A DNA stretch of 64,000 nt, taken from contig NZ_CP099466.1 in assembly GCF_023921125.1 (NCBI RefSeq), positions 3,491,051-3,555,050 on the forward strand. The letters are read 5' to 3'. Origin of the DNA: Arthrobacter caoxuetaonis (GTDB lineage: Bacteria > Actinomycetota > Actinomycetes > Actinomycetales > Micrococcaceae). Position numbers and translations under genes: made by a program. Below, in pieces: positions 50,934-61,356 of the stretch (position 1 is its first letter; each line of letters opens with the position of its first letter). The notes beneath the pieces were generated by a model. It ran no database searches. It worked only from the letters and a program-made list of their open reading frames with translations, and was not told the DNA's origin.

Positions 50934-51968
50934 GTGAGCACAGAAATTCGCCCTGACACCGCAGCTTCCGCCCAGGAAGTCCGTGACGTCATCATTGTTG
51001 GTTCCGGCCCCTCCGGCTACACCGCGGCCATCTACACAGCCCGGGCGAACCTCAAGCCGCTGCTGATCGCCAGCTCGGTCACCGCCGGCGGCGAACTGAT
51101 GAACACCACTGATGTGGAGAACTTCCCCGGCTTCCCTGAAGGCATCATGGGCCCTGACCTCATGGTGAGCCTCGAGAAACAGGCGAGCCGGTTCGGTACC
51201 GAGATCCTCTTCGAAGACGTCACCAGCGTGGACCTCTCGGGCGACGTCAAGAAGGTCACCATCGGAACCGGTGAAACCTTCCTCGCCCGGTCCGTAATCA
51301 TCTCCACCGGATCCGCCTACCGTGAGCTGGGCCTGGAAGACGAAAAGCGCCTGTCCGGCCGCGGCGTGAGCTGGTGCGCAACGTGCGACGGTTTCTTCTT
51401 CAAGGGCCAGGACATCGCCGTCATCGGCGGCGGCGATTCCGCCCTGGAAGAAGCCCTCTTCCTGACCAAGTTTGCATCCTCGGTGACCCTGGTGCACCGC
51501 CGCAACACCCTGCGCGCCTCTAAGATCATGCAGGACCGCGCCCTTGCCAATGAGAAGATCCGCTTCGTCTGGGACTCCGAGGTCGTTGGTATCCACGGCG
51601 AAGACAAGGTCACCGGCGCCCGGCTGCGCAACACGCAGGACGGTTCCGAATCAGACCTGGCCGTCACGGGAATCTTCGTGGCCATCGGCAACGACCCGCG
51701 CGTCGACCTGGTCCGCGGCCAGCTCGAGCTGACTGAAGCCGGAACCATCGCCGTCCAGGGCCGGACCTCCAAGACCTCCCTCCCCGGCGTTTTCGCCGCG
51801 GGCGACGTCATCGACCCGACCTACCGGCAGGCCATCACCGCTGCCGGCTCGGGCTGCGTGGCTGCGCTCGACGTCGAGCACTACCTGGCAGACATGGGCT
51901 CGGCAGCTACCGCCGCCACAGTCCCCACCCCGGCATCGGAAACAGTTTCCGAAAACGCTGCCGTCTAG
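50934..51968 (+). CDS. trxB: Thioredoxin reductase
   Basis: NADPH-dependent flavoenzyme that reduces thioredoxin, 344 aa. FAD motif [17 protein letters not shown] at the start, redox-active cysteines in [13 protein letters not shown] motif [15 protein letters not shown] and C-terminal FAAGDVIDP are all present. AAAGAGG precedes the GTG at 50934. The last about 20 residues are a Thr/Ala-rich extension. trxA follows 22 bp later. Confidence 0.97.
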
Positions 51969-51990
51969 AGATCCACAAGGAGCAAGAACA

Positions 51991-52317
51991 ATGAGCAACG
52001 CCAAAGACGTAACGGATTCCTCCTTCGGCACCGACGTACTGACCGCCGACAAGCCGGTAATCGTGGACTTCTGGGCTGAGTGGTGCGGTCCCTGCCGGAT
52101 GCTCTCCCCCATCCTCGACGACATCGCAGCGCAGTACGCGGACAAGGTCGACGTCGTGAAGGTCAATGTGGACGACAATCCGGCGATCGCCGCCAAGTAC
52201 GGCATCACGTCCATCCCCGCCGTCTACGTCTTCAAGGGCGGTGAGGTTGCTGCCACGTCGATCGGCGCGAAGCCGAAGCAGGTTCTCGAGCAGGAATTCG
52301 CGGCGTTCCTGAAGTAG
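51991..52317 (+). CDS. trxA: Thioredoxin
   Basis: 108-aa thioredoxin, general protein disulfide reductant of the cytoplasm. The WCGPCRM active site lies at about residues 31-37 after VIVDFWAE, with the cis-proline in ITSIPAVYVF. AAGGAG precedes the ATG. The CwlM-like gene begins 5 bp after its stop, so trxB, trxA and that gene form one operon, the usual actinobacterial order. Confidence 0.98.
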   Translation: MSNAKDVTDSSFGTDVLTADKPVIVDFWAEWCGPCRMLSPILDDIAAQYADKVDVVKVNVDDNPAIAAKYGITSIPAVYVFKGGEVAATSIGAKPKQVLEQEFAAFLK

Positions 52318-52322
52318 GCCTC

Positions 52323-53507
52323 ATGATGCATCCGACGGACGATTGTCTGCGGAGGCTGGACTCCAGCCGGCGCGTGGTGGCGCTTCGCGAAGCGCTGCTG
52401 CGCGCCGGCATTTCCATGTCCTACCTCGCGCCTGATGCCGTCAACGACCCCACCGTCTTCGACGACCATGTTGATGCCGCCGTGCGCGCCTTCCAGCAAA
52501 GCCGCGGCCTGATCGTCGACGGCGTGGCGGGGCCGGACACCCAGCGCGCGCTGGCCGAAGCCCAGTTCCGCTTCGGTGACCGTCCCCTCGCCTACGTCGA
52601 GGACCAGCCGGCCGTGCGGGGCGACGACGTCGCCGAACTGCAGCGCCATCTGTCCCACCTGGGTTTCTACTACGGCCACATTGACGGCGAATTCGGTATG
52701 CGCACCAGATACGCGGTGGCCGAGCTCCAAGAGAACCTGGGTATCCCCGGTACGGGCGTGTGCGACGGCGACACGGTGACCGCAATGTCCCGGGTGAACC
52801 GTGCCATTTCCCCCAGCCAGGCCTTCGCGCTGCGCGATTACGAGCGCTTGGACCGCTCCACCGCTGCCCTGCGCGGCCGCACCATCACCCTCAACACCGG
52901 CCGCTCACAAACGCCCTCTGAACACGTCACCGAACGCCTGAGCGGCCAGCCCCTGACGGAATTGCTCGTGGCCTCGGACGTCAGCGAGCGGGTAGAGCGG
53001 ATCCTGAAGGAGTTCGGCGCCGAGGTAGTGGCCTGGGAGCCTAACGGCACCGATCCGATGAGCAGGCTGCCCAGCCTGAACGTCGACATTCACTGCGACT
53101 GGCTGGACCAGCCGGCTGCGTCAGGCATCGCCGCCTACTACTGGGGACTGCCGTCCACCGGCGAGCCCCGCTCCCCCATCGGGCAGCGTGCCGCGATCCT
53201 GATGATCAAGGAACTGGCAGCGCGGACGGACATGGAAAGTCTCGGCGTGCACGCCCGCACGTGGGACACCCTGAAGCTGCCGGGCATCCCTTCGGTGGGA
53301 ATCGACCTCGGCTATCTCAGCAACTTCCATGACGCCCACAGGCTTGCTGATCCGGTGTTCCGGCAGACTGTGGCTGATTCCATTGTCATCGCGATCCAGC
53401 GGCTCTATCTGCTCGAGGAAGAGGATCAGCCCACAGGCACCCTGGTCCTCGACGACGTCAGCCGGTTCAATCCGGCCGACGAGCACAGGCGGGTTTCCGG
53501 CCTGTAA
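52323..53507 (+). CDS. cwlM: CwlM-like peptidoglycan-regulator, inactive amidase fold
   Basis: Protein of 394 aa without signal peptide, so cytoplasmic. Two peptidoglycan-binding domains (about residues 17-80 and 99-155) precede an Amidase_3-like domain (about 186-380). Zinc sites look lost: the usual DPGHGG is LNTGRS (190-195), and the catalytic Glu before the late LSN motif is Asp328 (GIDLGYLSN); His257 remains. In mycobacteria CwlM is a PknB-phosphorylated regulator of MurA, not a wall hydrolase; the same role is likely here. It is the third gene of the trx operon. The symbol is by synteny and architecture. Confidence 0.83.
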   Translation: MMHPTDDCLRRLDSSRRVVALREALLRAGISMSYLAPDAVNDPTVFDDHVDAAVRAFQQSRGLIVDGVAGPDTQRALAEAQFRFGDRPLAYVEDQPAVRGDDVAELQRHLSHLGFYYGHIDGEFGMRTRYAVAELQENLGIPGTGVCDGDTVTAMSRVNRAISPSQAFALRDYERLDRSTAALRGRTITLNTGRSQTPSEHVTERLSGQPLTELLVASDVSERVERILKEFGAEVVAWEPNGTDPMSRLPSLNVDIHCDWLDQPAASGIAAYYWGLPSTGEPRSPIGQRAAILMIKELAARTDMESLGVHARTWDTLKLPGIPSVGIDLGYLSNFHDAHRLADPVFRQTVADSIVIAIQRLYLLEEEDQPTGTLVLDDVSRFNPADEHRRVSGL

Positions 53508-54022: not shown

Positions 54023-54327
54023 AAGCCGAACTTGATCCCCACATACATCCCACGGCACGGCTGCGGCTCTGCGCCATGCTGGCTGCCGGAACATCGGTGG
54101 AGACTTCTGTTCTCCGGACGACCCTTGGCCTGTCCCCGTCGGCGTTCAGCAAGCAGGTGACTGCGCTGGTGGACGCCGGTTACGTGAGCCAGGAGCGCGG
54201 AACCCTGGATTCCAGGAAGACCTGGCTCAGCCTAACGAAGGACGGTTCTAAGGCCTACCGTGGACATGTAAAGGCACTCGAAGAGATAGTCTCGGGCACG
54301 TTCGGGCACGGCTCCCACAACCGTTAG
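54019..54327 (+). CDS. Winged-helix transcriptional regulator, PadR/MarR-like
   Basis: Small protein of 102 aa starting at a TTG that overlaps the previous stop. ARLRLCAMLAAGTSVETSVLRTTLGLSPSAFSKQVTALVDAGYVSQERG is a winged-helix DNA-binding domain (HTH_34 type), followed by KTWLSLTKDGSKAYRGHVKALEEI for the wing and dimer helix. It probably regulates itself and the coupled membrane protein; the signal is unknown. Confidence 0.82.
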   Translation: MKAELDPHIHPTARLRLCAMLAAGTSVETSVLRTTLGLSPSAFSKQVTALVDAGYVSQERGTLDSRKTWLSLTKDGSKAYRGHVKALEEIVSGTFGHGSHNR

Positions 54328-54444
54328 GGGACCGTGCTGCACTGGCTCTCCGTGCGGAGACCGGCTGGTTGGGAATGGCCGCACTCTCGCGGAGAAGAAG
54401 TCCCGGCTTGTACGTTGGGGGTCACTACACCTGAGGAGCGCTCC

Positions 54445-55022
54445 GTGGGCAAGGTAGTCATGTACAGCTCCGTATCACTGGATGGTTACATCGCAGATCA
54501 GCAAGACCAGCCGGGTCCGCTGTTCGAGTGGCTGACCGGCGGCGATGTACCCCTGGATGCAAGCGGGGAACTGAAGGTGTCCCAGGCTTCCTTCGAGTAC
54601 ACCCGGAGCTATTGGGACCAGATCGGAGTGACCGTCGTCGGACGCCACGTCTTCGATCTGACCGAAGGCTGGGACGGAAACCCTCCGTCCGGAGTGGACC
54701 ATATGGTTGTAGTCACCCATCGGCCTCCCCAGCGGACTGGGACCCGGAGGGTTCGTTCTACTTTGTCGAGGGCATCGAGGCGGCTATTGCCGCAGCGCAG
54801 GAACTCGCGGGCAGCCGGATCGTCGAAGTCGCAGCGGGCGACGTTGGAGGGCAGGCGTTCGCCGCCGGGTTGGTGGACGAGGTGCGAATGGACGTTGCAC
54901 CCGTCGTCTTTGGATCTGGGAAGCGCTACTTCGGCGGCGTTGATACGCAGCACGCATTGGGCGATCCCCATGTGTTGGTCGGGAACCGGGTGCTTCACCT
55001 TCGATATCCAGTACTCCGCTGA
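54445..55022 (+). pseudogene. RibD-domain (dihydrofolate reductase-like) gene with frameshift
   Basis: The reading starts at a GTG preceded by GAGGAG and encodes VVMYSSVSLDGYIADQQDQPG, the start of the RibD_C/DHFR-like family, up to VVVTHRPP near 54725. The rest of the family (ADWDPEGSFYFVEGIEAAI, then DEVRMDVAPVVFGSG and the end HLRYPVL) continues in another frame to 55022, so a 1-base deletion (or 2-base insertion) lies near 54722-54734. Either a recent pseudogene or an assembly error; family is certain. Confidence 0.8.
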
Positions 55023-55346
55023 CGGGGGTCATACTTATAGCCTCCCCTGAAATCACTCGGCACCCACCCGCGGCATACTTGTCCCATAGCGAAAACTACG
55101 CGTCTCTGCTCCCTCCACGCCGGCTAGTCCCGGTCGCTTCAGATACCAAACCCCAGTATCGGTCAGTCTGCAGAGAACACGCTGAACAGGCCCAGGGCTC
55201 CTAATCCTCCCAAAGGTGTTGTGCAGCTGCGGGGCTGACTGCGGCCTAAGAGTGTTCCGGCCGAGGAAGCGCTACCGCTGCAGCATCACTTGGCGTGGGG
55301 AGTTCAGCGATCTGGATCAGCGCGGTCCTGGATTACCGATGGTGGT

Positions 55347-55360
55347 GTTTCACGTGAAAC
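55347..55360. other. parS: parS site 1
   Basis: Perfect GTTTCACGTGAAAC core palindrome, the ParB-binding sequence. It is the leftmost of ten in the window. Confidence 0.9.
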
Positions 55361-55578
55361 TGTTCCGGCAGCTGGGCAGCTGACGTCGGGCTCGGAGATG
55401 AGCCAGAGCGGTGGTTGACGGTTCCTGGCCGGTATCGAGATCCTCTTCGACGTGCACCGCTACATCCACGCCCCATCCCAGCCACCGTCGACGTCCATCT
55501 CATTCCCCTTCCCGTTCCCGTTCCGATTCTCATTCCTGGTCTACCAGCCGGTCGCTCACTCGCATTCTCCCGCTCCCG

Positions 55579-55610
55579 CACTCGCTCGCACTCGCACTCG
55601 CTCGCACTCG
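55579..55610 (+). repeat. Two tandem 16-bp repeats
   Basis: CACTCGCTCGCACTCG occurs twice back to back (55579-55594, 55595-55610) inside a pyrimidine-rich stretch of short CCCGTTCC- and CTCG-type repeats. It may reflect replication slippage; no function is evident. Confidence 0.8.
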
Positions 55611-55848
55611 AGGGATTGTCGATATCGAACGCAGCTGTGTCCCGCACCTCGTCTCCGAACCGTAGGCCAGCACATGTCGTCCACGGTGCGCTCGTTCTTC
55701 CGGGTGGATCGGCTGGCTAGGGGGCGGTCGGTCCTTGGGTGATCACGCGGCGCGCAGCAGGCCGGCCAAGCCTCACGCGTCGTTCAATGCGACGGTCGGT
55801 GGGGCTCCGGCACCTCAAGCCTGCTCGGCCCCACAGTGATACCTTGTC

Positions 55849-55862
55849 GTTTCACGTGAAAC
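55849..55862. other. parS: parS site 2
   Basis: Perfect GTTTCACGTGAAAC core, flanked C/G, 502 bp after site 1. Confidence 0.9.
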
Positions 55863-56278
55863 GACGTACCCACGGTGCGCGAAGACGCAATGATCCCTGT
55901 TCCGTCAGCGGTCGTGCGCATGAGCCAGAGCCTAGGCAACCGCGCCATCGACATCGCTGCGTGATTCCCCGTCAGCTGTTATCCGCAGAACCGAGACCGC
56001 GATCATCGGGAATACACTGAGTCCTCCTTCTTCGATTTTCGCCGTGCTTACACCAGGGAAATGGCGGAGGCAAAGCCGTCACGATCCGCGGTGTTGACTA
56101 CAAACTCGCCGGTGCCGCCGACGGACCTCACTGACCTGAGGAGAGAGTTGAATTGTCGGCAATAACGCAACGATGGCAGATCCCCGTCGATCTGTTCAGC
56201 TATTGGGGTGCTGGCCGCCCAGGCGGCTCCGGGTTGCCTACAGTCTCGAGTGCAGGAGACGACATGGCCGTCATGTGT

Positions 56279-56292
56279 GTTTCACGTGAAAC
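56279..56292. other. parS: parS site 3 (16-bp form)
   Basis: TGTTTCACGTGAAACA, the full 16-bp consensus (core 56279-56292), 430 bp after site 2. Confidence 0.92.
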
Positions 56293-56770
56293 ACCAAACG
56301 TTGGAAGCTGGCACGGACCGACTCACCACGCAGGTCGAAACGGCCCCAGCGGGATCCAAAACCAGCAGAATATACCAAACGAAATCGCCAGGCCCTGAGT
56401 CCAATATCCGGGGAAACGTACTCTATAGGCCTCTACCGAAATCAACGTTCTGCCCTGCATGGGGAGCAGATCCTCGGGGACATACTCGCTGGTAAGCAAC
56501 CGAGGACCTTCATTCCGCACCTCGTTTCCTGCGGGATACACAGTTGGGGCCACCGATCCCAGTCAGCGCCACCCGATAGACGGCTGTATCCGCTGGCCCC
56601 ACATCGCTAGCACTCGACAACTCCAGAGAAAGAAGCGTCCAGGCAAATCACTTGAAACCGGAAAAGGTCGAACCGAACAACACCCTGGCGGGCCATTGAT
56701 ACCGCTCATGCGCTGCTCCCCAAGACTGGAGGTTCTTTACGGTGCACGATCTCAGAGTTGCCGGAATTAG

Positions 56771-56806
56771 ATCTGGTTCCTGTTTCACGTGAAACAGGAA
56801 CCAGAT
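56771..56806. other. parS: parS site 4 inside a perfect 36-bp palindrome
   Basis: The core 56782-56795 (full consensus TGTTTCACGTGAAACA) is extended on both sides by ATCTGGTTCC / GGAACCAGAT into a perfect 36-bp inverted repeat. Symmetry far beyond the ParB contact is unusual. Confidence 0.92.
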
Positions 56807-57186
56807 TGCGGGGTGGTCTCGAGTTGCCTGCGCCGGCATGCTGGCCCTGGTCGAAACGCTGAATTTCACCATAGTCCGTAGACGACTCAGCTCTCAGGAC
56901 CCTCCTTCTCATAAACCGGGTATGACAGGTGTCGGGAGGGCTTTCTACGGACAACACGGTGGACCACTCCAGGTCTATTGCACACAATCGATTTTGTTTG
57001 GTGAGGAAACAACTGTCACCCACTTTCGTCTTACAGGGACAGTCCATCGGGCACGTAACTGCTGTGCCTGCCATTGCAATGAAAGCCCAAGACCGGACTC
57101 GAAAATGACCCGAGGTACCTACTCCGCCCCTCTTAGCCAACCAAGAGACTTCAAGGCTGGTACCTGTAAGAAGACACCGAGCTCCC

Positions 57187-57200
57187 GTTTCACGTGAAAC
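57187..57200. other. parS: parS site 5
   Basis: Perfect GTTTCACGTGAAAC core, 405 bp after site 4. Confidence 0.9.
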
Positions 57201-57602
57201 AGGCGAAACAACGGCTTAGGACTCGAAAGGCGCGGACCCGCTAGAAATGGCTGGAACCACGCCACGTTCCCGAGGCGATACGTGGGCACAACTGCAAATC
57301 GGAGCAAGAGTACCCTGCCCTTTCGACGTGTGCGTTGCCTGCAAACCTGAACCGAAGAGCGTGTGCCCGCCTGGATTACTCAATACTTTGCCGCAGGATG
57401 GCAAGCGGACAGACCTCAGACGTCAGCCGATTATCAGCAACCAACCTAAATACGGTGTGTTCCGTACTGCGACATCGATACTGCCACTTGTTGGGAGCGG
57501 TCGTACACCTGACGCGTCGATGAATCCAAGTTGTATAGTTCCACCAGCTCAGCACCGCAGCTTGCCCGAGGGGACAATTGCCAGCAGGCCCCCACAATCC
57601 AT

Positions 57603-57616
57603 GTTTCACGTGAAAC
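57603..57616. other. parS: parS site 6
   Basis: Perfect GTTTCACGTGAAAC core, 416 bp after site 5. Confidence 0.9.
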
Positions 57617-57836
57617 CGTCGTCATCGTTCCGGCGCCAAATTTGCTGGTTGCTCGCTCAAAAAATCGCCCCGCAGCATCTGGATGGCGTTGCAACCATCT
57701 TGCGTCGGGGTAGGGTCTGAAGGTGGGCTGAGGACAAGAATGCCGGCGCAACGGACACCTATCCAGAACAAATAGCTGCGCCCGGGGCGAGCCTCCCTGG
57801 ATAGCAGGGAATCGACATGTGCTCCAGCTGCGGAAT

Positions 57837-57860
57837 GATCCGTTTCACGTGAAACGGATC
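57837..57860. other. parS: parS site 7 in a 24-bp palindrome
   Basis: Core 57842-57855; GATCC and GGATC arms extend it to a perfect 24-bp palindrome. Confidence 0.9.
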
Positions 57861-57984
57861 GTTGCACTGCAGTCCCTCCAGAAGCCAGCGGTATTGCCAC
57901 CTTGAGCTGCGCTAAGTGCACGTCTCAAGACCGTGCGCAGCTGATTCACCCGGCGTGCGCTCAGAAGGCGTGATACAACAAAAA

Positions 57985-58016
57985 GCGGCCCCTGTTTCAC
58001 GTGAAACAGGGGCCGC
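57985..58016. terminator. parS: parS site 8 / parB terminator hairpin
   Basis: A 32-bp perfect palindrome with the 14-bp parS core (57994-58007) in the middle and GCGGCCCC / GGGGCCGC arms, 18 bp after the parB stop. It can serve both as a ParB site and, as RNA, as the terminator of the parAB transcript. Confidence 0.85.
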
Positions 58017-58033
58017 GATCTGTGTACGGTCTT

Positions 58034-59380
58034 CTAGGACGCTTGCCCTTCGACGGGATTGAGGACAGTCATGATTCGGTTCAGATCATCCACGCTTGCG
58101 AACTCGATACTCACCTTGCCCTTGCGGGCACCAAGAGTGATCTTGACGTTGGTATCCAGACGGTCAGACAACGAATTAGCCAGGTAATCGAGGCGCTCGT
58201 GCCGCGCTCCAACCTTGGGCTTGGCCTCCTTCGCAGGCCGGCGAATACCGTCAGACAACGCCACAACTTCCTCGGTTGCGCGAACTGACATACCTTCGGC
58301 GACAATCTTCTGGGCAAGCTTCTCCATCTCCGCGGGATCGTTCAGACCCAGGAGTGCGCGGGCGTGCCCGGCGGACAGGACCCCAGCTGCGAGACGACGC
58401 TGCACCAGCGGAGGGAGCTTCATCAACCTCAACGTGTTGGAAATCTGCGGACGTGAACGGCCAATGCGTTCAGCCAGTTCTTCGTGCGAGCACTCAAAGT
58501 CGTCCAGGAGCTGCTGGTACGCAGCAGCCTCTTCAAGCGGATTCAGTTGGCTTCGGTGCAGGTTTTCGAGAAGTGCGTCGCGCAGCAGATCGACGTCCTG
58601 GGTGGACCGGACAATGGCTGGCACCGTGTCCAAGCCAGCTTCACGGCTTGCGCGCCAGCGACGCTCACCCATGACCAGTTCGTAAGGATGATCCTCATCG
58701 CCCTCAGCGGACGGCCTGACCACAATCGGCTGGAGAACGCCGATCTCTCGGATAGAGTGCACCAGCTCGGACATGTCTTCTTCGTCGAAGACACTTCGCG
58801 GCTGCTTACGGTTCGGATGAATGGAATCAATTGGGAGTTCAGCGAACCGCGCACCAGGTACCTCCAGCAGCGTTTCACGTGAAACACCGCTCTCGGCGTC
58901 CGCAGGTGCTTCCGCCCCATCCGCGACAACGCCTGCCAACGCGTCTTCCTGAGCCTCTACGGCCTGCACTGGCTCCTTGGGTGCGGCGGGGCTCTTGCGG
59001 GCCGTGCTGGGCTTTTTTGGCGCCTCTACAGCCGATTCTGCGGGCTTCTCAGCGCCTGCCTGCGGGCGGGCAGCCAGATCTTCCTGTGCAGCTGCCGCCG
59101 TGGCGGCGTCTGCCTTGGGGGCCGCCTTCCGGTTAGCTGCCGAGCGGGCTGCCGGCTTCTTCTTGGCAGGGGCCCGGAGGGCTTCCTTGTTGATTCCGGC
59201 ACCACGGCGCACTCCGCCTGTGCGGCCCGGCGCAACCTCATCGCTTGCAGCAGCAAAGAACAAATCAACGGGCCGGCCAGCCCTGGTCGACTGGGAGGTT
59301 TCAGTTGTCTCCGAAGACTCGGGAGTACTGGGAATCAATGCTCCCAGACCCCGGCCCAAACCACGACGCTTTTCGGTCAT
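58034..59380 (-). CDS. parB: Chromosome-partitioning protein ParB
   Basis: CTPase that binds parS and spreads on DNA, 448 aa. A long Ala/Pro/Lys-rich N-terminal region (about residues 1-175, unusual in length) precedes the core: [33 protein letters not shown] (CTP-binding), the helix-turn-helix [23 protein letters not shown], and the C-terminal dimer domain. A parS site (58872-58885) lies inside the gene and is translated as VSRET. GGAAGGA precedes the ATG. It follows parA by 101 bp. Confidence 0.96.
58872..58885. other. parS: parS site 9, inside parB
   Basis: Perfect GTTTCACGTGAAAC core within the parB coding sequence (residues VSRET). Confidence 0.92.
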
Positions 59381-59481
59381 GGGTAAGTCCTTCCCTTATG
59401 CACACAGCAAGCGGCATGGATTGATTGTGAGAGTATTCTACGGTCCACCGTCGGGTTCACCCGGTATCCCAAAGGGAGTGT

Positions 59482-60621
59482 CTAGACGGATCGCTGGGCG
59501 ATCTCGGCAGCAGCTTCCAGGTAGGAAAGGGCACCTGTCGACGACGGATCGTACGTCATGACGGTCTGCTGGTAGCTCGGCGCCTCAGAAATCCTCACCG
59601 AACGGGGCACGACAGCGGCCAGGACCTGCTGTGGGAAGTGTTCGCGGACCTCAGCTGCAACCTGTGCAGCCAGGTTGGTCCGGCCGTCATACATAGTGAG
59701 CAGGATCGTTGAAACAACCAGATCAGCGTTCAAGTGCTTTTGGATCATCTCAATGTTCTTCAGAAGCTGGCTCAAGCCCTCCAATGCGTAGTACTCGCAC
59801 TGAATGGGAATGAGGACTTCCTTCGCCGCAACAAAAGCGTTGACGGTGAGCAGTCCCAGGCTCGGCGGGCAGTCAATGAAGATGTAGTCCAGCCGCTCTT
59901 CGCCGGCGTTCTTGCGTTCCTTGGCGTAAACCTCAATGGCACGCCGCAGTCTCTGCTCACGCGCTACGAGGGAGACCAGCTCGATTTCCGCACCCGCAAG
60001 GTGGATTGTCGCAGGAGCACAGATCAGGTTCTGGATGTCGGGGCACTGCGCCACAACCTTACCCAGGGGCAAATCATCGATGAGGACGTCGTAGATGCTC
60101 TCCACGTCTGCCCTGTGGTCGATCCCGAGGGCAGTAGAAGCGTTTCCCTGCGGATCGATATCGATCACCAGGACGTTGAGGCCGGCCGTGGCCAGAGCGG
60201 CGGCAAGGTTTACTGTGGTCGTCGTCTTCCCGACGCCGCCCTTTTGGTTGCTCACGGTCATGATCCGGGTCTCGGCAGGCCGCGGCAGGACCCTGCCCCG
60301 GAGCCTCTCGCGGCGCCGGTTCTCACTGGCAAGTTCGCGGGCCAGTGGTGTGCTTTCGTCCATCAGATCCATAACGTCTACCGACTCTGACGGATAAACC
60401 GCCTGGCCGGCTACACCACCTTCGCTGGTCTCGGGAACAGGCACATACGATGCGCCGGCAGACAGTGTTGCAACAGCATGTCCCGTTTCACGTGAAACAG
60501 GCAAGTCAAGCTTTGGTTCTACAACCTCTTCAGGTTGATTCCTCGAAAAAGGCGATGAGAAGGCAGAACCCAGCGCAGCAAAGGGGGGAATTCGTTTTGC
60601 GGCAGAATCGCGCACACTCAC
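59482..60621 (-). CDS. parA: Chromosome-partitioning ATPase ParA
   Basis: Walker-type ATPase of 379 aa that binds the nucleoid and pulls ParB-parS complexes apart. After an about 118-residue N-terminal extension the core starts at RIMTVSNQKGGVGKTTTTVNLAAALA (deviant Walker A), with Walker B IFIDCPPSLG and the usual YALEGL segment. The extension is low-complexity and contains a parS site (60485-60498), read as PVSRETG. The start GTG at 60621 has a weak ribosome site, so an internal start is possible. Confidence 0.95.
   Translation of the reverse strand: MSVRDSAAKRIPPFAALGSAFSSPFSRNQPEEVVEPKLDLPVSRETGHAVATLSAGASYVPVPETSEGGVAGQAVYPSESVDVMDLMDESTPLARELASENRRRERLRGRVLPRPAETRIMTVSNQKGGVGKTTTTVNLAAALATAGLNVLVIDIDPQGNASTALGIDHRADVESIYDVLIDDLPLGKVVAQCPDIQNLICAPATIHLAGAEIELVSLVAREQRLRRAIEVYAKERKNAGEERLDYIFIDCPPSLGLLTVNAFVAAKEVLIPIQCEYYALEGLSQLLKNIEMIQKHLNADLVVSTILLTMYDGRTNLAAQVAAEVREHFPQQVLAAVVPRSVRISEAPSYQQTVMTYDPSSTGALSYLEAAAEIAQRSV
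60485..60498. other. parS: parS site 10, inside parA
   Basis: Perfect GTTTCACGTGAAAC core within the N-terminal extension of parA; rightmost of the ten sites. Confidence 0.92.
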
Positions 60622-60726
60622 CTGGACATGCTCACTTTCACAACATAAGGCATTACTGCCCCTAGCCTATCGGCTGGCCGGTCAAATCCCCGGATCGGGC
60701 AGGGTGTGTGCAGTACCAGGCAGGGC

Positions 60727-61356
60727 CTAGACAACAATGCGGACTACGGTCGTGTGCTCCTCAAGCACATCCTCGCCGGCGGTGACGACGGATGTCTCCT
60801 TGCCGCCAAGCCGGCGAATCTGCTTGGCAGCCTTTTCGATTTCCTCCGCGGCGCTGCGCCCCTTGATGGCCAGCACTACCCCGGAACCCTGCAGGAGCGG
60901 AATCGTCAGGCCGGCCAGTCCGGTGAGGGCGGAGACGGCTCGGGCGGTGACTACGTCTACCTCCACCTTGCCGACTACCTGTTCAGCCCGGCCGCGGATA
61001 ACCTCCACGTTCTGAAGCCCCAGATCGTCAACAACCTCGTTCAGCCAGGTCACCCTGCGCTCAAGGGGCTCGATCAGAGTCATCACCAGATCAGGCCGGG
61101 CGATAGCCAGGCACAGCCCGGGCAGCCCGGCACCTGAACCAACATCGGCCACCCTGCTGGAGTCGGGAATCAGATCAGCTACGACAGCGCAATTGAGCAC
61201 ATGCCTGCTCCACAACCGCGGAACTTCACGCGGCCCGAGCAATCCGCGCTCCATGCCGGAAGTAGCCAAATGCTCCACATAGCGCTCTGCCAGCGGGAGG
61301 CGGGATCCGAAGACCTTGACCGCAGCAGCATGCTCGGCGGGCGTAATTTCAACCAC
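60727..61356 (-). CDS. rsmG: 16S rRNA (guanine(527)-N7)-methyltransferase RsmG
   Basis: SAM-dependent methyltransferase of 209 aa modifying G527 of 16S rRNA. The motif VADVGSGAGLPGLCLAIARPD and the LLGPREVPRLWSRHVLN segment are diagnostic. It starts with GTG at 61356. It lies between jag and parA, its usual place near the origin. Confidence 0.95.
   Translation of the reverse strand: MVEITPAEHAAAVKVFGSRLPLAERYVEHLATSGMERGLLGPREVPRLWSRHVLNCAVVADLIPDSSRVADVGSGAGLPGLCLAIARPDLVMTLIEPLERRVTWLNEVVDDLGLQNVEVIRGRAEQVVGKVEVDVVTARAVSALTGLAGLTIPLLQGSGVVLAIKGRSAAEEIEKAAKQIRRLGGKETSVVTAGEDVLEEHTTVVRIVV

Follow-up and report, generated by a model that had tools for sequence, protein, structure and literature searches.

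The 64,000-nucleotide stretch of Arthrobacter caoxuetaonis DNA analyzed here (the window, whose coordinates are used throughout) carries the partition genes parA and parB and, alongside them, a dense array of parS palindromes. Ten exact copies of the 14-mer palindromic parS core GTTTCACGTGAAAC fall within 5.2 kb; eight of them occupy a noncoding tract at 55051-58033 that follows parB directly, one lies inside parB, and one lies inside the longest parA frame. We read this tract as a candidate chromosome centromere, and the site nearest parB as part of a predicted transcription terminator.

The array and its genomic setting

The features of the locus, from the parB-distal end inward, are as follows.

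55051..58033, unstranded: gene-free parS tract, 2983 bp, G+C content 0.584, with eight exact cores
55347..55360, unstranded: parS 1, exact core, at the parB-distal end of the array
55849..55862, unstranded: parS 2, exact core
56279..56292, unstranded: parS 3, exact core
56782..56795, unstranded: parS 4, exact core, at the center of a perfect 36-bp palindrome (56771-56806) without a T-run
57187..57200, unstranded: parS 5, exact core
57603..57616, unstranded: parS 6, exact core
57842..57855, unstranded: parS 7, exact core, in an extended imperfect palindrome (57827-57870) that is 83% complementary
57985..58016, minus strand: predicted intrinsic terminator of parB, with a 14-bp stem and a 4-nt loop followed by TTTTTGTTGT; its inner stem and loop are parS 8 (57994-58007)
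58034..59380, minus strand: parB, 448 aa, with ParB_N, HTH_ParB, and ParB_C; holds parS 9 (58872-58885)
59482..60621, minus strand: parA, 379 aa in its longest frame, with AAA_31; holds parS 10 (60485-60498)

A sequence-only reading of this DNA had placed ten perfect parS sites at these positions, and every one of them proved exact. The consensus palindrome exceeds chance at this locus: a search of the window that tolerated up to 3 mismatches returned the same ten sites and no decayed copies, against a mean of 1.22 and a maximum of 4 in 100 dinucleotide shuffles. The scan of the complete genome proposed by the sequence-only reading found no other exact parS in the 3.93-Mb assembly (2 contigs), and two further places with one mismatch. 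The genome holds a single ParB_N match, that of the window's own parB, whose product combines ParB_N, helix-turn-helix, and C-terminal dimerization domains and whose neighbor is parA.

The window ends where contig 1 ends (3,555,050 bases), and a DnaA C-terminal domain is encoded at bases 1461-1661 of the same contig. We place the array near oriC on the assumption that the contig is circular, in which case all ten parS should lie within about 10 kb of dnaA. On contigs of the same genus, parB is found within about 6 kb of the contig end in 11 of 13 cases.

Eight of the sites had been described as sitting in a gene-free tract of about 3 kb, poorer in G+C and devoted to them, and the length, composition, and gene content of the tract bear this out. 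It is limited on one side by the parB stop (58034) and on the other by an apparently degraded open reading frame (ORF) that ends at 55050, and our codon model called no gene within it; the rate at which this caller reports genes on reversed loci is 0.006 per kb. The model places the window's next gene at 3314 bp because the degraded ORF escapes it. A coding gene in the corresponding tract of related genomes had been named as the finding that would count against this description, and none was called. In all 29 genus genomes, that of A. caoxuetaonis included, the DNA directly after parB is gene-free for 1.75 to 4.42 kb (median, 2.9) and contains 4 to 9 exact parS per genome; the whole genomes of the 28 other genus members hold 5 to 11 exact parS each.

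This layout marks the genus and some of its relatives, not the class, because at 137 loci outside the genus, which may include one species twice, the gene-free stretch has a median of 296 bp and holds at least 3 parS at only 29. These lengths are rough upper bounds, since the codon model was trained on the genus. In assembling the loci, which are numbered with the prefix L, we left out L148 as a duplicate of L104 and retained the partial ParB matches L086, L093, and L106. In loci of Yaniella, Enteractinococcus, Zhihengliuella, Micrococcus, and Citricoccus, most or all parS precede the parB stop and are found near parA or ahead of it; loci with parS in this upstream position are L056, L077, L090, L091, L095 to L100, and L105.

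The parB-proximal site and the predicted terminator

The parS site nearest parB (57994) appears to form the core of that gene's predicted terminator hairpin, a feature that the sequence-only reading had passed over. The hairpin starts at the 18th nucleotide past the parB stop codon, is stable and GC-rich (−34.2 kcal/mol; z, −8.2), and in the window is followed by the T-tract TTTTTGTTGT, a feature that is mixed among relatives. It resembles intrinsic (Rho-independent) terminators in presenting a GC-rich hairpin and a T-run soon after a stop codon, and it differs from them in that the inner stem and loop are the predicted ParB-binding palindrome and do not vary, while the arms covary.

Comparison across loci supports this prediction. 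A parS lies within 130 nt of the parB stop at 62 of 86 loci, and at 51 of these 62 near-stop first sites the flanks form no fewer than 7 Watson-Crick pairs out of 10; this degree of pairing is reached by 11 of the 202 sites upstream and by 15 of the 279 remaining sites downstream. Throughout the near-stop set of 62, the inner stem and loop, which are parS itself, are invariant, and the arms covary, with 220 cells changed on both sides against 79 ± 7 in shuffles. The covariation score is 0.579, compared with 0.156 ± 0.014 when shuffled and at most 0.189 when slid; kinship among the sequences inflates the shuffle test, and the slid control preserves relatedness. Past the stem, at least 4 of 8 nucleotides are T in 30 of the 49 hairpins with arms of at least 6, and at least 4 are A before the stem in 4 of the 49, so that T is found downstream and A rarely upstream, as a directional terminator would have it.

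Traces of the same arrangement are found farther afield. We compared 80 class- and order-level loci (ParB matches in 40 of 96 genomes of the class-level set and 40 of 57 of the order-level set), and a core with at most 1 mismatch lies within 150 nt of the parB stop at 11 of them. All 9 arm pairs form, G-U pairs allowed, at 4 of the 11, of which L203 and L213 belong to the same family and L206 and L218 to another family of the order; L216, from that other family, forms 7 of 9. Three of the other sites in the 80-locus set likewise reach 9 arm pairs.

Some distal parS stand directly after the ends of other genes facing parB, at the following distances from the parB stop.

L044: 4642
L144: 2623 and 4691
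L145: 2761 and 4795
L147: 2692 and 4726
L048: 5480
L051: 5462

Their position raises the possibility that more than one gene end has recruited a parS.

Even spacing, retention of sites, and competing explanations

The spacing of the sites had been called semi-regular, with a test against random placement suggested, and under that test it is more even than chance. The gaps within the tract, from parB outward, are 152, 239, 416, 405, 503, 430, and 502 bp (coefficient of variation, 0.33; P = 0.0046 to 0.0053 under three random-placement nulls). Among 21 mutually unalignable genus tracts (less than 6% blastn coverage either way; loci treated as independent), 19 are more even than the random median (Kolmogorov-Smirnov P = 5e-5), and the same holds for 18 of 20 when the window is left out (P = 1e-4) and for 12 of 17 arrays outside the genus (P = 0.004). 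Some arrays are uneven, such as that of L045 at percentile 0.66. Among 11 arrays that we picked by hand from other genera, all upstream of the parB stop, 4 rank as very even (below percentile 0.05), with gaps of other lengths. The tendency to evenness is real within the genus; its length scale does not hold universally.

An even array could instead record a constant distance, about 350 to 450 bp, over which the partition complex bridges or loops DNA, and have nothing to do with loading or insulation. The unalignable genus set lends this some substance, as 26 of its 108 gaps fall at 350 to 450 bp, the fullest two 50-bp bins. Even arrays elsewhere, however, use other gaps (132 to 319 bp in L096 and 616 to 978 bp in L100), and no helical phasing was found in 148 gaps (R, 0.03); we think a looping length an unlikely explanation. 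A fixed universal spacing was rejected as a general rule because other genera differ in gap length.

The sites also persist while the DNA around them turns over. Blastn matched the window tract to 8 of the 28 others, each time over roughly 1% of its length and in pieces of 28 to 39 bp that are confined to parS palindromes, either the parB-proximal site or parS 4. Seven pairs of tracts from other species could be aligned with MAFFT. Three of them retain few intact 14-mers: L035-L038 (66% identity) share 7 of 7 parS with 1.6% of 14-mers intact, L041-L146 share 6 of 7 (1.1%), and L147-L045 share 6 of 7 (2.2%). The closer pairs share 7 of 7 (L144-L044; 42.7%), 6 of 7 (L145-L045; 59.6%), 4 of 5 (L101-L142; 18.1%), and 5 of 6 (L042-L146; 12.5%). 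Two of the lost parS in these pairs are single core substitutions, and the distances of parS from parB also agree between aligned tracts. The sites are conserved against background turnover, a behavior in keeping with a predicted centromere.

Retention bears on a second alternative, in which the chief role of the array is to titrate ParB and to set the level of parAB expression: bound at the sites in parA, parB, and the terminator, ParB would repress or end transcription of the operon, and segregation would need only one site. The placement of parS in parA, in parB, and in the predicted parB terminator is what such a scheme would call for, and a single site is enough in Corynebacterium glutamicum, as reported in PMC7083940. 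Sites 0.5 to 2 kb out are nevertheless kept in the aligned pairs like near ones; far sites would be unneeded for operon control, and their retention therefore counts against this alternative, which we judge improbable.

It is very improbable that the tract is an unrecognized gene, a small RNA locus, or a pseudogene remnant in which parS is incidental. True, 26 ORFs of at least 50 aa overlap it, the longest inside being 157 aa, and the apparently degraded ORF at 54334-55050 lies just outside. But the tract gives no codon signal, its scanned ORFs have no family match (3 were run against Pfam and 8 against NCBIfam), and the 64-kb window has no Rfam match at the gathering score and no tRNA; on these grounds we rejected coding or RNA content. 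The sole cross-species match to an ORF fragment (L039; 48% over 54 aa) falls in the degraded ORF beyond 55050. That the sites are copies of a locally multiplied repeat or mobile element is scarcely credible, for all that ten identical 14-mers lie within 5.2 kb: no unit is shared beyond the core (21-mers around the sites are 71 to 90% alike, core included), a plasmid collection gave no match (phages lay outside that search), the genome has no exact copy elsewhere, and we rejected local multiplication on the unshared flanks and the lack of a plasmid match.

A candidate centromere and its proposed loading by ParB

We consider it highly probable that the tract is the chromosome centromere, a transcription-insulated, multi-site ParB-loading zone near oriC whose parB-proximal site doubles as a terminator core. 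The main claims rest on the gene-free tracts in 29 of 29 genus genomes, the pairing and covariation of the hairpin arms, the spacing, and the retention of sites. In the mechanism that we propose, ParB encoded next door would load as sliding clamps at the eight tract parS, assisted by the one in parB and the one in parA, and the array would be occupied by ParB and might serve SMC loading as well. The gene-free DNA would keep transcription away from the loading zone, and parAB transcription should stop at the edge of the array because the site nearest parB is the core of the predicted intrinsic terminator of parB. Selection would preserve how many sites there are, how exact they are, and how far apart they stand, and would let the intervening DNA drift. 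More tentatively, and as rather less than an even prospect, we put forward the fuller proposition that the centromere is a dedicated one, insulated from transcription, where selection governs how many otherwise free-floating ParB loaders there are and how evenly they are separated, and where the boundary palindrome is at once loading site and parAB terminator, physically coupling loading to the end of the transcript.

ParB dimers load as clamps at parS and then slide, and the Caulobacter fit described in PMC10387095 puts the sliding length at 710 bp; because sites in that fit are occupied nearly all the time, site clearing would limit loading there. Loaders spread over kilobases of untranscribed DNA would pay if sliding is short. 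In a steady-state exclusion model with sliding lengths of 350, 710, 1500, and 5000 bp, eight clumped sites hold 73 dimers at 710 bp, the observed array 175, a perfectly even array 176, and random arrays 169 ± 4.5. The observed array would thus carry 3.5-fold the ParB of eight clumped sites at 350 bp and 2.4-fold at 710 bp. Roadblocks stop sliding clamps in vitro, according to PMC9242446, a result that fits, by analogy, a gene-free tract bounded by a terminator.

Several observations weigh against an insulated, terminator-bounded loading zone. A near-stop parS is absent at 24 of the 86 loci. At 10 of these, a core with 1 to 3 mismatches lies no more than 150 nt away, and a terminator-like hairpin is present at 7. 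At one of the 7, L063, the hairpin is that of parS: its arms persist although the core carries one substitution, suggesting that the hairpin has a use of its own. When a hairpin and a T-run are both strictly required, parS supplies the best hairpin at 24 of the 62 near-stop loci and another sequence does so at 6, with no hairpin passing at 32. A terminator scan of 54300-61000 returned 8 sites against 5.5 ± 2.6 in shuffles, a count so near the shuffled level that only stem length stands out. Counting the pairs that have changed on both sides gives 10, the same as the mean of the shuffles (10.0), and is uninformative. As to retention, identical 14-mers may attract MAFFT when tracts have diverged. 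As to spacing, a 50-bp exclusion zone lowers the even arrays to 15 of 21 in the genus (P = 0.002) and 8 of 17 outside it (P = 0.058), and 5 of the 11 hand-picked upstream arrays from other genera fall short of the random median in evenness.

The loading model itself sets limits. With longer sliding, the observed array holds only 1.6 times (1.5 kb) or 1.1 times (5 kb) as much ParB as clumped sites, and evenness as such adds just 10, 4, 1.3, and 0.4% ParB at 350, 710, 1500, and 5000 bp. Regular spacing had been suggested to suit clamp loading; in the model, spreading the sites out matters more, and a large gain in ParB load from evenness was not borne out. Measurements in other species show ParB diffusing faster than in the 710-bp fit, again according to PMC10387095, and faster diffusion would make the gain from spread sites smaller. 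PMC9242446 also describes ParB bypassing blocks by recruitment, and chromatin immunoprecipitation (ChIP) profiles without strong change near genes; bypass and flat profiles weaken the need for insulation. In C. glutamicum, one parS suffices for wild-type-like growth (PMC7083940).

The sequence-only reading had contrasted this array with most bacteria, which were said to keep parS inside genes and spread over tens of kilobases. That contrast fails because clustered and often intergenic parS are known: the discussion in PMC8357415 has parS clustered within 5 to 40 kb in most bacteria, 9 of 10 parS are intergenic in C. glutamicum according to PMC7083940, and PMC3899335 describes 22 parS in about 3 kb in Myxococcus xanthus. 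C. glutamicum resembles A. caoxuetaonis in its actinobacterial ParB and in its ten redundant parS of the oriC region, nine of them intergenic; its sites, however, extend over 35 kb, 73 kb from oriC, with two pairs less than 100 bp apart (PMC7083940), whereas A. caoxuetaonis has its ten in 5.2 kb and eight of these in one gene-free tract after parB. M. xanthus likewise has about 3 kb of densely parS-filled DNA beside parAB, but its cluster lies about 4 kb upstream of parA, with the consensus TGTTCCACGTGGAACG, and its sites, by division of the figures in PMC3899335, are about 145 bp apart on average.

Clusters of parS, intergenic ones included, are therefore already known, and a parS within a predicted parB terminator would be new. 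Among the matches listed in the open-licence literature, no title or abstract opening mentions parS inside a parB terminator or evenly spaced arrays, and no paper on spacing kept during sequence turnover was among them. A 2020 review (PMC7333895) lists among the open questions why the number of parS varies and why the sites cluster though one is often enough. About twenty versions of a compact gene-free array, diverged in sequence, are available within the genus, and number, spacing, and insulation would be separately variable in them; a parS-terminator would join segregation and gene expression in one 32-bp element.

The surroundings of the tract yielded a few minor observations. A short tandem repeat of CACTCG-like units lies within it at 55557-55610. 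The apparently degraded ORF region that borders it (54334-55050) has no Pfam match; judged by eye, it resembles a frame-shifted RibD/dihydrofolate-reductase-like gene. Beyond it, plus-strand genes facing parB at 50934-53507 encode, by Pfam, a pyridine nucleotide-disulfide oxidoreductase and an N-acetylmuramoyl-L-alanine amidase, separated by a 108-aa ORF; from the gene order, trxB and trxA are presumably the names that apply here.

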